This document shows positions 3 through 56,582 of a DNA stretch of 64,000 bases, piece by piece (position 1 is the stretch's first letter; the number at the start of each line of letters is the position of its first letter). The translations under genes and the position numbers were made by a program. The DNA is from Eubacterium ventriosum. GTDB taxonomy: Bacteria; Bacillota; Clostridia; Lachnospirales; Lachnospiraceae. Location of the stretch: assembly GCF_025150745.1 (NCBI RefSeq), contig NZ_CP102282.1, forward strand, positions 1,561,501 through 1,625,500. The letters are read 5' to 3'. The notes under the pieces were generated by a model, which did not search any database, had not been told where the DNA came from, and saw nothing but the letters and a program-made list of their open reading frames with translations.

Positions 3-719
3 GGTTCAAAAGATGTTAATATACATGATTGTTATTTTGGAAAGTCTAAAAAGAGTACTAGAGAAAAGTACTATATGAAAGAAGCAATTAATATTGACTT
101 GGCAGACAAGGCAACTCATGGATTGCCACTTGATTGGGTCAAGAAAGACAAAACACCATGCTATAATGTTACAGTTGAAAATAATGTTTTTGACAGTACA
201 ACAAGAGGTGTTGGAACACATAAGTATTCACAAAACAGCAAAGGTGAAAATATCTATCATCAGAATATAACAATAAGAAATAATGAATTTAAGAATATTC
301 ATGATAATGGAGTTTTTGTTTTAAACTGGAAGAATACAAAGATTGAAAATAACAAGTTCACCAATATTGGTAATTCATCAAAGAAGAGCTATAGCTCAGG
401 TGCACATGCCATTTCAGGAGGTGGCATTGAAGAAATTAATATTACAGGAAATACTTTTACAAAGATTAAGAGAAATCCTGTATATTTCTGTATCCAGCAA
501 AATGTAGGTAGCGGAAGTAACTACAAAAAAGTTGGAATGAAAATAACAAAGGAAGAAACAAAGGCAATGCTTGATAATAAAGTTTCTGATTGCGGTTATG
601 ATATGAATAGCATATTCCACGGATATGATATTTTGTATTTTAAGGGGTCAGGAGAAAGATCAAGATCTAATGCCGTTGGAGTAAACATAAATAAGCAAAT
701 AATCTCTTATGGATTATAA
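3..719 (+). CDS. Right-handed beta-helix protein, C-terminal part (5' end outside window)
   Basis: The frame is open from the left edge through to the stop, so this is the C-terminal 238 codons of a longer gene. The first internal Met lies at 75 and has no good ribosome site, so it is unlikely to be the start. Repeats of the NNxF type (VENNVF, IRNNEF, IENNKF, ITGNTF) at 20-30 residue spacing mark rungs of a right-handed parallel beta-helix, as in pectate-lyase-like and glycan-degrading or surface proteins. The catalytic part, if any, is not visible. Homologues are usually secreted polysaccharide-active enzymes; the exact substrate cannot be inferred. gpmI follows 24 bases later with its own ribosome site. 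Confidence 0.75.
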   Translation, partial: GSKDVNIHDCYFGKSKKSTREKYYMKEAINIDLADKATHGLPLDWVKKDKTPCYNVTVENNVFDSTTRGVGTHKYSQNSKGENIYHQNITIRNNEFKNIHDNGVFVLNWKNTKIENNKFTNIGNSSKKSYSSGAHAISGGGIEEINITGNTFTKIKRNPVYFCIQQNVGSGSNYKKVGMKITKEETKAMLDNKVSDCGYDMNSIFHGYDILYFKGSGERSRSNAVGVNINKQIISYGL

Positions 720-19608: not shown

Positions 19609-19875
19609 GTACCCCAAAAAAAATGAAAAATGAAATGTCGGGGTACGTTTCTTGCAAACTTAAACTTTATGTTGCATAAAATAAGCAGGGGTTTGAAAAT
19701 ATGTACCCCAAAAAACAAGAAAAAGTGTATAGAGGGGTACAGTCATATATTACATATACAGTATGTTGTGAGAATGAACGCGTTAATTTGAAAAACGTAC
19801 CCCGATAATTAAAGAAATTTATATTTTGGGGTACATTACCACAACATTCAATAAAAATCAAAAATGTTGTGGTAA
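19609..19875. repeat. Array of GTACCCC...GGGGTAC palindromes at 94-bp pitch
   Basis: Three 38-base palindromes with GTACCCC/GGGGTAC arms start at 19609, 19703 and 19797, exactly 94 bp apart. A fourth with 13-base TTACCACAACATT arms follows directly at 19836-19875. Loops are A-rich and not conserved. The 780-base gap between thiT and the MATE gene holds the 38-bp repeats, a terminator and this array, and no credible gene. Confidence 0.85.
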
Positions 19876-38470: not shown

Positions 38471-38704
38471 ATTACGTGTCATACAATAAAAGTCTAATGT
38501 GACACGTAATTCTAAGAAAAATTCATTAAATTTAAAGTTCAATTACGTGTCATACAATAAAAGTTCAATCTGACAAGTAATTTGAAGAAGAATTGTTTAT
38601 TTCCAGCGCAAAATTACGTGTCGTAGAACAAAAATGCTGTCCCACACGTAATGAACAAGATCAATTACGGAAGCCACAGAAATTTCGCTCTCAGATTCCG
38701 TAAT
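38471..38704. repeat. Palindrome array, ATTACGTGTC and ATTACGG types
   Basis: Forty-base palindromes with ATTACGTGTC/GACACGTAAT type arms start at 38471, 38542 and 38613, exactly 71 bp apart. A palindrome with ATTACGG/CCGTAAT arms follows at 38664-38704, a step of 51 bp. Spacers differ from one another. The same families occur at 47691 and 54021. Confidence 0.9.
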
Positions 38705-47690: not shown

Positions 47691-47801
47691 ATTACGTGTC
47701 GTGTGGAAAAAACGCTGTGTGACACGTAAATGATTGAAATATTTGATTATTTATGCCTGAGATTACGTGTCAGAGAGAAAAATGCTATTCCACAAGTAAT
47801 T
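47691..47801. repeat. Two ATTACGTGTC palindromes 71 bp apart
   Basis: Palindromes at 47691-47730 and 47762-47801, arms ATTACGTGTC with GACACGTAA (second copy decayed to ACAAGTAAT). The pitch of 71 bp is the same as in the other arrays. No gene lies in this 350-base gap. Confidence 0.85.
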
Positions 47802-52977: not shown

Positions 52978-53811
52978 ATGTATAGAGTAAAAAAAGCGTT
53001 AAACCACAATGCGGTTGTGGCAATTGATGCAGAAAAATGTCAGGAATTTTTGATTTTGGGAAAAGGCATCGGGTTCGGTAAGAAAGTTACTGAGTATGTT
53101 GAACCAAGAGCAGAAGACACTGTATATTCAATGAAAGAATGTACGGAAAGAGGAGAGGCAGAAGACATTGTTAATGAAGTTTCTCCAGTTTGTTTAGAGA
53201 TTGCAGATGCAGTTTTAAACAAGGCGGAAGAAGAATTTGGAAATATTGACAGAAGAATACTTTTTCCATTGGCAGACCACATTGAGTTTGCAGTCAAAAG
53301 AATAAAGAACAATGAGCAAATAAGCAATCCGTTAACAGCGGATATAAGAGTTCTTTTTCATTCAGAATATAAAGTGGCAGAGGGGATTAAACCATTGTTG
53401 CTTGAAAAGATGGGTATAGAAATAGATGAACATGAAGTAGGCTATATTGCACTTCACATTCATTCAGCCATTGATACAGAGAACGTATCCCAGTCAATGA
53501 TTATAGCTCAGGGTGTGCGTGAGTGTATTTCTATGGTAGAAGCTGAAACAGGAAGAAAAATAAATGTTCTATCTATTTCATACAACCGTCTAATGAACCA
53601 CATTAAATATATGATAGCAAGAGCCCTTAAAGGTGAAAAAATCAAGCTTAATCTGAACGACTATATGGAAAACAAATTTCCACAGGAATTTCAGATGGCA
53701 ATCACCATATGTGACAATATAAGCCATTTGCTTAAGTTGTCCTTTGATGAGTCAGAAATAGGATATCTTGCAATGCATATCCAAAGGGTAACAAGCGGAG
53801 AGCTTGACTAA
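52978..53811 (+). CDS. Transcription antiterminator of the BglG/LicT family
   Basis: A 277-residue antiterminator with an N-terminal CAT RNA-binding domain (MYRVKKALNHNAVVAIDAEKCQEFLILGKGIGFGKK) and two PRD domains with conserved histidines (ADHIEFAVKRI, YIALHIHSA; RLMNHIKYMIARA, YLAMHIQRV) that are phosphorylated by the PTS. It follows ptsG by 20 bases in the same transcript and presumably binds the RAT upstream, as GlcT does for ptsG in bacilli. Confidence 0.94.
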   Translation: MYRVKKALNHNAVVAIDAEKCQEFLILGKGIGFGKKVTEYVEPRAEDTVYSMKECTERGEAEDIVNEVSPVCLEIADAVLNKAEEEFGNIDRRILFPLADHIEFAVKRIKNNEQISNPLTADIRVLFHSEYKVAEGIKPLLLEKMGIEIDEHEVGYIALHIHSAIDTENVSQSMIIAQGVRECISMVEAETGRKINVLSISYNRLMNHIKYMIARALKGEKIKLNLNDYMENKFPQEFQMAITICDNISHLLKLSFDESEIGYLAMHIQRVTSGELD

Positions 53812-53838
53812 AAGTTGTGAAAGAAAAATAAAGAAAGT

Positions 53839-53882
53839 AAAACTAGTCAGATTAACCATAGTTGATTTGGCTAGTTTTTTTT
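53839..53882 (+). terminator. Intrinsic terminator after the antiterminator gene
   Basis: AAAACTAGtCAgAT pairs with ATtTGgCTAGTTTT, followed by more T residues. Confidence 0.88.
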
Positions 53883-53890
53883 GTGGGTGC

Positions 53891-53983
53891 GAAAGTGGTT
53901 TGTTTTGCAATTGTGGAAGTGGTTTGTTTGCAATTGCGGAAGTGGTTTGTTTGCAATTGCGGAAGTGGTTTGTTTGCAATTGC
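53891..53983. repeat. 23-bp tandem repeat with GCAATTGC palindrome
   Basis: Units at 53915, 53938 and 53961 read GGAAGTGGTTTGTTTGCAAT then TGC; a slightly longer first unit starts at 53891. Each carries the 8-bp palindrome GCAATTGC. Confidence 0.9.
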
Positions 53984-54020
53984 GGGAAAAGATTGTTTGT
54001 TTTGTCTTGTTTCGTTGCTG

Positions 54021-54824
54021 ATTACGTGTCGTAGAGCGAAAATGCTGTGGCACACGTAAAATATTGAAATATTTGTCTTGATTCGCAGCCGATTACGTGT
54101 CGTAGAGCAAAAATGTTGTGGCACACGTAAAATATTGAAATATTTGTCTTGATTCGCAGCCGATTACGTGTCGTAGAGCGAAAATGCTGTGGCACACGTA
54201 AAATATTGAAATATTTGTCTTGATTCGCAACCGATTACGTGTCGTAGAGCAAAAATGTTGTAGCACACGTAAAATATTGAAATATTTGTCTTGATTCGCA
54301 ACCGATTACGTGTCGTAGAGCGAAAACGCTGTGGCACACGTAAAATATTGAAATATTTGTCTTGATTCGCAACCGATTACGTGTCGTAGAGCGAAAATGC
54401 TGTGTGACAAGTAATTTATTGAAATTAAGCTTGTATTTTTGCATGGGATTACGTGTCGGTGAACGAAAATGTTATATGACACGTAATTCTCCAAAAGTTC
54501 ATTGATATTTTATGAATAATTACGTGTCAGCGAAAGAAAATAGTGTATGATACGTAATTGAAAACAGTATTACGGATATATGAGCAAAAACATCTCATAA
54601 ACCGTAAAATTAGGAAAAAATCTTATCCTATCGTATCCCATTACGGAATCTGGCAGCCAAAATATTTCAGAATCCGTAATTTATATTCAAGAATCCTTGA
54701 GCAGGACGAATATTACGGAACTATAGGAAGACAATCTCTCAGAATCCGTAATTTATATTCAAGAATCCTTGAGCAGGACGAATATTACGGAATTTCAGTA
54801 TAAAGTTTTCCAAAAATCCGTAAT
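54021..54824. repeat. Large palindrome array, 12 palindromes at 71-72 bp pitch
   Basis: ATTACGTGTC palindromes (40 bases) begin at 54021, 54092, 54163, 54234, 54305, 54376, 54448 and 54519; the first five units, spacer included, are near-identical tandem copies. ATTACGG palindromes follow at 54569, 54640, 54712 and 54784. All steps are 71 or 72 bp except the 50-bp change of type. With the 23-bp repeats and 200 bases of plain A+T-rich DNA this fills the gap between the PTS and GntR loci. Confidence 0.92.
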
Positions 54825-55029
54825 GCTCCAAATCAAGCCTGTCCACAGAGCAAAAAAATCAAGTCTACCGCATTAGAAAATCATAACAAATAATCTAAAC
54901 CCCTCATATGGTTATAAAAATAAAGAATAAATTACATGAATCCATGCTAAAAGTCATAACAATCAGATGAAAATATTAAGGAGGTTATGATTTTGGCATA
55001 AAACCACTTGACTTCTAACTACCACAGGG

Positions 55030-55061
55030 CTATACTACATTATATCAGTAATGTAGTATAG
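55030..55061 (+). promoter_or_regulatory. Inverted-repeat operator before the GntR gene
   Basis: CTATACTACATTA (55030-55042), spacer TATCAG, TAATGTAGTATAG (55049-55061): perfect 13-base arms, 33 bases before the start. Likely binding site of the YtrA-type regulator. Confidence 0.8.
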
Positions 55062-55094
55062 TTGATAAAAGATATTATACAAGGAGGTACATCA

Positions 55095-55466
55095 TTGAAA
55101 ATTGATGAAAACAGTATGATTCCAATCTATGTGCAAATTGCTGATTCCATTGAAGATGACATACTATCAGGAAAATTGAAGGAGAACGATACATGTTACT
55201 CACAATTAGTTTTGGCGAAGGAGCTTAAAGTCAATCCGGCTACTGCGGCGAAAGGAATTAATCTTTTGGTTAGCAGAGGGATTCTTATAAAGCACAGAGG
55301 CCAGGCAATGACAGTTGCAGGCGATGCCATAAGTATGATTTCAGAAAGGAAGAGGCATAGTGAAGTGGAACAGATAGCAGAACAATTAATTAAACTAAGT
55401 AAGAAATTGTCAATTACAAAAGAGGAGTTACTTAAACTAATAGCAGAACAATACGATAAGAAGTAA
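55095..55466 (+). CDS. GntR-family regulator, YtrA type
   Basis: A 123-residue regulator of the short YtrA subfamily: only a winged HTH (IPIYVQIADSIEDDILSGKLKENDTCYSQLVLAKELKVNPATAAKGINLLVSRGILIKHRGQAMTV) and a helical tail. The start is TTG at 55095 because AAGGAGGT lies seven bases before it; an earlier in-frame TTG (55062) abuts the operator. Such regulators repress adjacent ABC transporter operons, and the two genes that follow are an ATPase and a membrane protein. A perfect inverted repeat upstream suggests autoregulation. Confidence 0.9.
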   Translation: MKIDENSMIPIYVQIADSIEDDILSGKLKENDTCYSQLVLAKELKVNPATAAKGINLLVSRGILIKHRGQAMTVAGDAISMISERKRHSEVEQIAEQLIKLSKKLSITKEELLKLIAEQYDKK

Positions 55467-55649
55467 ATAAGACAAAAAAGCTAAACATAAAGTTAAACAA
55501 TCAAAAAAATTAAATACTAAGCTAAAAAGAAAAACAGACACATAATTAAATACAAAGCTAAGTACAAAAGCCAGAAAAAACAAACAAAAAAGAAGTAATT
55601 TACAACAAGTAGTAGTAACAACAATTTTAGTCAGGAGGGAAGTGCAGTA

Positions 55650-56582
55650 ATGCATAATGAAAACATGGAAGAGATTAAAAGCATAAGCATGCAGAATGTA
55701 ACTTTCTCATACAAGGGAAAGAAAAGATATGTTTTTGAAGATTTTTCTGTAGATATTGAGCCAAATCACATTACGGGAATAATTGGTAGAAACGGACAGG
55801 GAAAAACAACATTAATGAATTTAATAGCCGGCAAGTTTGAACCGGATGAAGGAATAATTGAAATAGACGGAAAGAATCCGGCAACTGATATAGGGACAGC
55901 TAAGCGCATTGTTTATGTGGCAGGGGTAATGAGTTACAGCGAAATTAAGTTAAAAAAGATAATCGAAGAGTATAGGTTGATGTATGAAAAATTTGATGAA
56001 GAGTTTGCTCATAAGTTAATGGAATTATTTGGTTTAAATAAAAAAGCAAAAATTAAAAACCTGTCAAAAGGTCAGGAAACAATTTTTAATTTTTGTTGTG
56101 GAATGGCAACAAGAGCAGACATAACAATACTTGATGAGCCGGTTTCGGGAGTTGATGCAATAAGCAGAAACAAAATATATGAAATTATTTTAAGAGACTA
56201 CATAGAACATCCAAGAACAATATTAATTTCAAGTCATATGTTAGGTGAAATGGAAAAGATTTTGTCACATATGATAATGATAGGAAACAAAGATGTACTT
56301 TTTGCAGGAGATATTGAAGAACTGAAAGACAGCGTTTACAGGGTAGACGGCGAACTTGCAAATATTGAAAAATATTGTGAAGAAAAGAAAGTTTTATATA
56401 AGAAAAATCAGACATTGGGAGCTATGGCAGTTATCGAAGGCAGACTTAACAAAGAGGAAGCAGAGAAAGCCGATGAATTGGAACTTGCCACAAGCAAGCT
56501 TTCAGGGGAAGAAATTTATATGTATAAGACAGATTTGAAAAACACAAATCAGATGGAGGCATTATGGGAAAAGAAGAACTAA
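55650..56582 (+). CDS. ABC transporter ATP-binding protein
   Basis: A 310-residue ATPase with Walker A GRNGQGKTT, a signature that reads LSKGQETIFNF rather than LSGGQ, and Walker B ITILDEPVSGVD. The C-terminal 90 residues form a regulatory tail. This matches the YtrB/BcrA-like drug-exporter ATPases that lie downstream of YtrA regulators. AGGAGGG precedes the ATG at about ten bases. The end overlaps the permease gene by 19 bases. The 180 bases before it are A-rich and hold nothing recognisable. Confidence 0.88.
   Translation: MHNENMEEIKSISMQNVTFSYKGKKRYVFEDFSVDIEPNHITGIIGRNGQGKTTLMNLIAGKFEPDEGIIEIDGKNPATDIGTAKRIVYVAGVMSYSEIKLKKIIEEYRLMYEKFDEEFAHKLMELFGLNKKAKIKNLSKGQETIFNFCCGMATRADITILDEPVSGVDAISRNKIYEIILRDYIEHPRTILISSHMLGEMEKILSHMIMIGNKDVLFAGDIEELKDSVYRVDGELANIEKYCEEKKVLYKKNQTLGAMAVIEGRLNKEEAEKADELELATSKLSGEEIYMYKTDLKNTNQMEALWEKKN

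Follow-up and report, generated by a model that had tools for sequence, protein, structure and literature searches.

The closest described relatives of the arrays presented here are the REP and BIME elements of Escherichia coli and other Proteobacteria, portrayed in PMC2817692 as small, many-copy palindromes between genes with regular spacing and composite arrays; gyrase and IHF are reported there among the proteins that BIMEs bind. REP tags are given as GTAG or CGTC (PMC3733652), and the BOX element of Streptococcus pneumoniae is presented as a modular composite with a tandem middle and a distinct end module (PMC3049150). CRISPR arrays also contain palindromic repeats at regular spacing. Typical bacterial palindromic repeats are identified by their sequence; in Eubacterium ventriosum and its relatives, the sequence changes between sister species and a 33-bp spacing persists, so that the geometry itself is the conserved trait.

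The present arrays are BIME-like in placement and, like REP and BIME elements, consist of extragenic palindromes in the 20- to 40-bp class at high copy, with 73 sequence model matches in E. ventriosum and at least 150 in a close relative of the same genus, G022 (some of which may be doubled by counting both strands). Unlike REP elements with the tags named in PMC3733652, the units carry no GTAG or CGTC tag and end in TTAC and GTAA. Whereas BIME units alternate in orientation, all units of an array here have one inner-sequence orientation and only the half-sites alternate, and what is conserved between species is the linker, not the sequence of the palindrome. A search with PF01797 for the RAYT (Y1) transposase gave no match in E. 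ventriosum and was positive in 5 of 14 control genomes, so REP/RAYT membership was rejected or at least weakened. The likeness to BOX lies only in the modular plan of a repeated middle with a distinct end module: BOX is given in PMC3049150 as boxA-boxB(n)-boxC modules whose RNA is predicted to fold and for which an IS partner has been proposed, whereas the arrays here, compared by plan and not by sequence, are palindromes at a probably helical spacing with no known partner. CRISPR membership was likewise rejected or weakened, because here near copies of the linkers recur and it is the palindromes that vary, in contrast to near-identical repeats with unique spacers. CRISPR-looking arrays in relatives (L151:40-940 in G004 and L183:65-826 in G002, with 36-bp repeats and unique spacers of about 30 bp) look quite unlike the palindrome arrays. 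No description of arrays resembling these palindrome arrays was among the results of literature searches.

Palindrome arrays in the E. ventriosum genome

The window (the whole stretch of 64,000 nucleotides that was analyzed) contains an array of 12 dyad-symmetric units at 54021-54824, listed on the forward strand. Eight A units (ATTACGTGTC, 40 nt) at 54021-54060, 54092-54131, 54163-54202, 54234-54273, 54305-54344, 54376-54415, 54448-54487, and 54519-54558 are followed by four B units (ATTACGG, 40 to 41 nt) at 54569-54608, 54640-54680, 54712-54752, and 54784-54824. Start-to-start steps are 71, 71, 71, 71, 71, 72, 71, 50, 71, 72, and 72 bp, with the 50-bp step leading from the final A unit to the first B unit. 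An initial sequence-only reading had described 12 palindromes at a pitch of 71 to 72 bp with one 50-bp step, which the relisted units bore out, and the five full tandem copies that it had noted agree with TRF, which returned 6.0 copies of a 71-bp unit with 93% match at 54001-54425. Upstream of the array lie, in order, a gene end (53811), an intrinsic-terminator-like site of that gene (53839-53878, forward strand; 1 found versus 0.6 expected in shuffled sequence), and a short 23-bp tandem repeat of four copies (53888-53985). A second array in the window (38471-38704, forward strand) has the order A, A, A, B with steps of 71, 71, and 51 bp, and a third (47691-47801, forward strand) has two A units with a step of 71 bp. 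Another palindrome family, three copies of GTACCCC...GGGGTAC at a 94-bp pitch, was found at 19609-19840.

BLAST with the window array against the E. ventriosum genome (2,856,089 bp, a closed-looking contig) found 16 places, and the 73 matches noted above (E ≤ 1e-3; some are both strands of one palindrome and some are partial) were obtained with a model of the A palindrome sequence, so the window array is not a chance occurrence. Counting all units in the extracted stretches, the genome contains 13 arrays of more than one unit and 3 units that stand alone. The step from one unit to its neighbor was 71 bp in 45 of 75 cases and 72 bp in 16. The pitch was to be read as the trace of a single, later diverged tandem duplication if copies elsewhere in the genome showed no 71-bp preference; that preference is present, because other E. 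ventriosum loci have the same 71- and 72-bp steps, and the initial observation proved bigger than first noted, with further arrays across this genome and in relatives.

A units precede B units in all seven E. ventriosum loci with both types, with a changeover step of 48 to 51 bp. At one locus (L032), A units alternate with hybrid units at steps of 51, 60, 52, 60, and 52 bp, and at another (L036, 0.12 Mb) half an A unit is fused to another repeat. The A palindrome sequence was found in 0 of 39 relatives; searches elsewhere gave five stretches in genome_contigs, one of which (L113) is an array of its own, and two in viral_contigs. Within the collections searched, this sequence appears to be private to E. 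ventriosum. A third repeat (GGGGTGTGGACACC...ACTTTGTACGAAAAAT) adjoins four arrays (L024, L026, L030, and L031) and the half-unit relic (L036:4108-4170) and is seemingly tandem at L026, with a period of about 57 bp. A dispersed repeat of about 37 to 40 bp at L034:11437-11478 has several more copies in the genome.

Linker length and palindrome sequence across species

A linker was defined as the stretch between GTAA and the TTAC that follows it. With these boundaries the A palindrome is 38 bp and the B palindrome 39 bp long, so that a 33-bp linker gives a pitch of 71 or 72 bp. Among 75 E. ventriosum linkers, 52 were 33 bp long and 9 were 34 bp; the others were 32 (1), 38 (1), 22 (2), 13 (5), 12 (2), and 10 bp (3). 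Six relatives of the same genus (G022, G012, G002, G014, G013, and G006) yielded 198 linkers in chains of at least three units, with lengths of 33 (177), 34 (17), 32 (1), 23 (2), and 37 bp (1). The palindromes of these six differ from those of E. ventriosum, and their pitch is mostly 74 bp (74 to 75 bp). A fixed pitch without sequence identity, as initially proposed, therefore stood with respect to geometry, in the form of a 33-bp linker across species, but not with 71 bp as the constant.

Palindrome length ranges from 37 to 42 bp while linker length stays, and where palindromes differ in length by a single base, the linker is usually still 33 bp and the pitch shifts instead. Arrays of G022 identified by TRF have a period of 74 bp, an unrelated-looking arm (ATTACATATA), and palindromes mostly of 41 bp, and their linkers are again 33 bp. 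Linkers of E. ventriosum and G022 are 33% identical, compared with 28% when shuffled, and are nearly unalignable yet equal in length; this identity may be underestimated, since the orientation of linkers in the relatives was set by T/A count. Within a genome, linker identity is 43% in E. ventriosum and 60% in G022, and common descent accounts for part of the constancy, because linkers of one genome are partly alike. Different species have different arms, and array geometry is kept where sequence is lost. Selection for geometry over sequence, as originally suggested, is supported by the genome-wide 71- and 72-bp steps together with the 33-bp linker beside other palindromes in other species.

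The 33-bp peak was kept when the linker detection ceiling was raised from 45 to 200 bp, and a reversed-sequence control gave 306 candidates with no peak and none with a 33-bp linker. The G022 stretches came partly from blind samples (390,058 bases) and partly from a palindrome model blind to linkers, and every chain counted in G012, G002, G014, G013, and G006 came from stretches aimed by such a linker-blind model. Length differed in 9 of 9 orthologous intergenic pairs of E. ventriosum and G022, so intergenic length is not generally conserved between these two genomes. An indel-rate control had a single alignable pair and was left out of the argument.

Linkers other than 33 bp fall mostly at 22 to 24 and 10 to 13 bp, lengths that lie roughly one and two turns of the helix below 33 bp. 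They occur at A-to-B junctions, in the L032 array, at two G022 end-unit junctions (23 bp), and in a separate array from a MAG titled Lachnospiraceae bacterium RUI241, which has five TTAC palindromes of 39 to 40 bp and linkers of 22, 24, 24, and 22 bp (lengths derived from unit positions). The seven A-to-B junctions are homologous, with three at 10 rather than 12 bp, L032 owes its repeated units to duplication, and two linkers of 37 to 38 bp match no whole helical turn. Because independent non-33-bp events are few, helical phasing of the linkers is graded as likely but not proven.

Genomic placement and candidate explanations

The arrays are intergenic. Flanking genes, taken from ORFs called by a simple script, could be classified for 42 of the 47 chains in the six relatives: 15 were convergent, 27 tandem, and 0 divergent. 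Convergent flanks were more frequent at G022 arrays (11 of 27) than at other gaps of that genome (22 of 207; P = 2.3e-4), and divergent flanks were less frequent (0 of 27 versus 38 of 207; P = 0.010). The 16 E. ventriosum loci included 6 convergent, 8 tandem, 1 unclear (L033), and 1 divergent locus, the last (L029) being a single B unit. A crude terminator scan, run without a baseline, flagged 26 of the 42 arrays in relatives. A nearly constant unit, unlike the core units, starts 14 of 30 G022 arrays, always at the same end, and B units hold one constant array end in 7 of 7 E. ventriosum loci with both types, which suggests a common plan of an end module and a repeated core.

The gap at the malic-enzyme locus is about 1.08 kb in E. 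ventriosum and roughly 20 to 130 bp in G005, G006, G012, and G015, and the gap at the enolase locus is 442 bp in E. ventriosum and 92 bp in G022; these two loci, the two tested, look array-free in the relatives examined. A TTAC detector applied to 29 orthologous-gene loci found an array at L105 only, and LicT was not conserved across the genus. Skew and coding strand in E. ventriosum switch near 0.505 to 0.55 Mb and again near 1.87 to 2.09 Mb, which were taken as the putative origin and terminus. None of the 16 loci comes closer than 0.553 Mb to 0.515 Mb (P = 4e-4, and 1.7e-3 for 13 merged loci; post hoc), and the region from 0 to 1.08 Mb, about 1.1 Mb around the presumed origin, contains no complete A unit. 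The half-unit relic at 0.12 Mb falls inside this origin-side gap.

Conserved geometry without conserved sequence is best explained by a cooperative DNA-binding protein, and the arrays are best read as phased sites for such a candidate protein, a reading held with about even confidence. Each TTAC...GTAA palindrome would be a double-stranded site for a dimer of the putative protein, and sites would be joined by 33-bp linkers, which span about 3.1 turns of the helix, or by linkers shorter by one or two turns (22 to 24 and 10 to 13 bp). Such linkers would bring adjacent dimers into contact on the same side of the helix each time and let them bind cooperatively. Beside gene 3' ends, the arrays could form a nucleoprotein barrier, a topological insulator, or a chromosome-organizing site. 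The protein filament or nucleoid site proposed in the sequence-only reading is still a fair interpretation, although the protein is a candidate only. A broader scheme is rather unlikely, namely, a genus-level chromosome-organizing system in which a cooperative protein, with specificity drifting by species, would recognize TTAC half-sites at whole-turn spacing and form nucleoprotein blocks beside gene 3' ends, excluded from the origin third of the chromosome. Spacing that is kept as sequence changes offers a way to ask whether extragenic repeats serve protein assembly or are mere parasites, and array DNA could be a handle for isolating the putative binding protein.

The main and serious rival, itself somewhat doubtful, is a mobile or selfish repeat (as REP/REPIN or BOX), in which a transposase or recombinase would recognize the folded or duplex unit and set the 33-bp linker, any host function being incidental. 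Such an element would fit the dispersed multicopy loci, the composite arrays of both species, in which one end has a unit of its own type, and the malic-enzyme and enolase loci that look array-free in relatives, and selection against harmful insertions would leave those away from promoters. However, the PF01797 search for a Y1 (IS200/RAYT-type) transposase returned none in E. ventriosum, target-site duplication was demonstrated for no unit, and mobility alone leaves the 22- to 24-bp and 10- to 13-bp linkers unexplained.

Old tandem duplications that have since diverged, with a pitch merely inherited, are already weakened as an explanation and appear decidedly unlikely. Units in an array are often near copies, and linkers of one genome have a weak common consensus, as such descent would leave; yet 33 bp recurs in seven species with near-random identity between E. 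ventriosum and G022 linkers, palindrome length drifts where linker length does not, and the other intergenic lengths compared between these two genomes differ in every pair.

Transcribed hairpins that are processed or that stabilize or terminate transcripts are very improbable: the complementary arms pair in 76.7% of cells (versus at most 45% when slid, an excess due to their being palindromic), they differ on both sides between the A, B, and G022 types, and the arrays adjoin gene 3' ends, but a terminator-like site already lies 5' of the window array, G022 arms are almost pure A/T, RNA would have no need of a fixed 33-nt linker, and a two-sided arm change is expected of a stem or a dimer site alike. 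Paired columns showed no covariation relative to shuffles in A (51 rows) or G022-type (29 rows) palindromes, which favors DNA over RNA; RNAalifold returned no pair for the A palindromes, and an Rfam search of 53000-56000 gave one subthreshold match, outside the window array, and no described family. The processed RNA array initially put forward is thus unsupported.

Distribution in the genus and order

Matches to a sequence-blind pattern, GTAA-33-TTAC-30..33-GTAA-33-TTAC, were tallied across the genus (23 genomes); they overlap within arrays and so do not represent independent loci. The pattern was present in seven of these genomes: E. ventriosum (30), G022 (127), G012 (70), G006 (63), G002 (5), G013 (4), and G014 (1). 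The other 16 genomes had no match, and the reversed control had none in any of the 23. An order-wide scan of 392 genomes, which detects the 33-bp geometry only and took in just three genomes of the genus, gave 30 matches in E. ventriosum, 1 in G014, and single matches in three others; the reversed control gave 12 matches in 8 genomes, and the singletons outside E. ventriosum were no more frequent than this control rate. Among the matches listed, the 33-bp pattern in viral contigs looks like chance. Two members of the genus without the TTAC type, G004 and G007, have other tandem palindrome arrays (L149:17306-17540 and L170:3992-4429, respectively), with different arms and linkers of about 26 and 18 bp.
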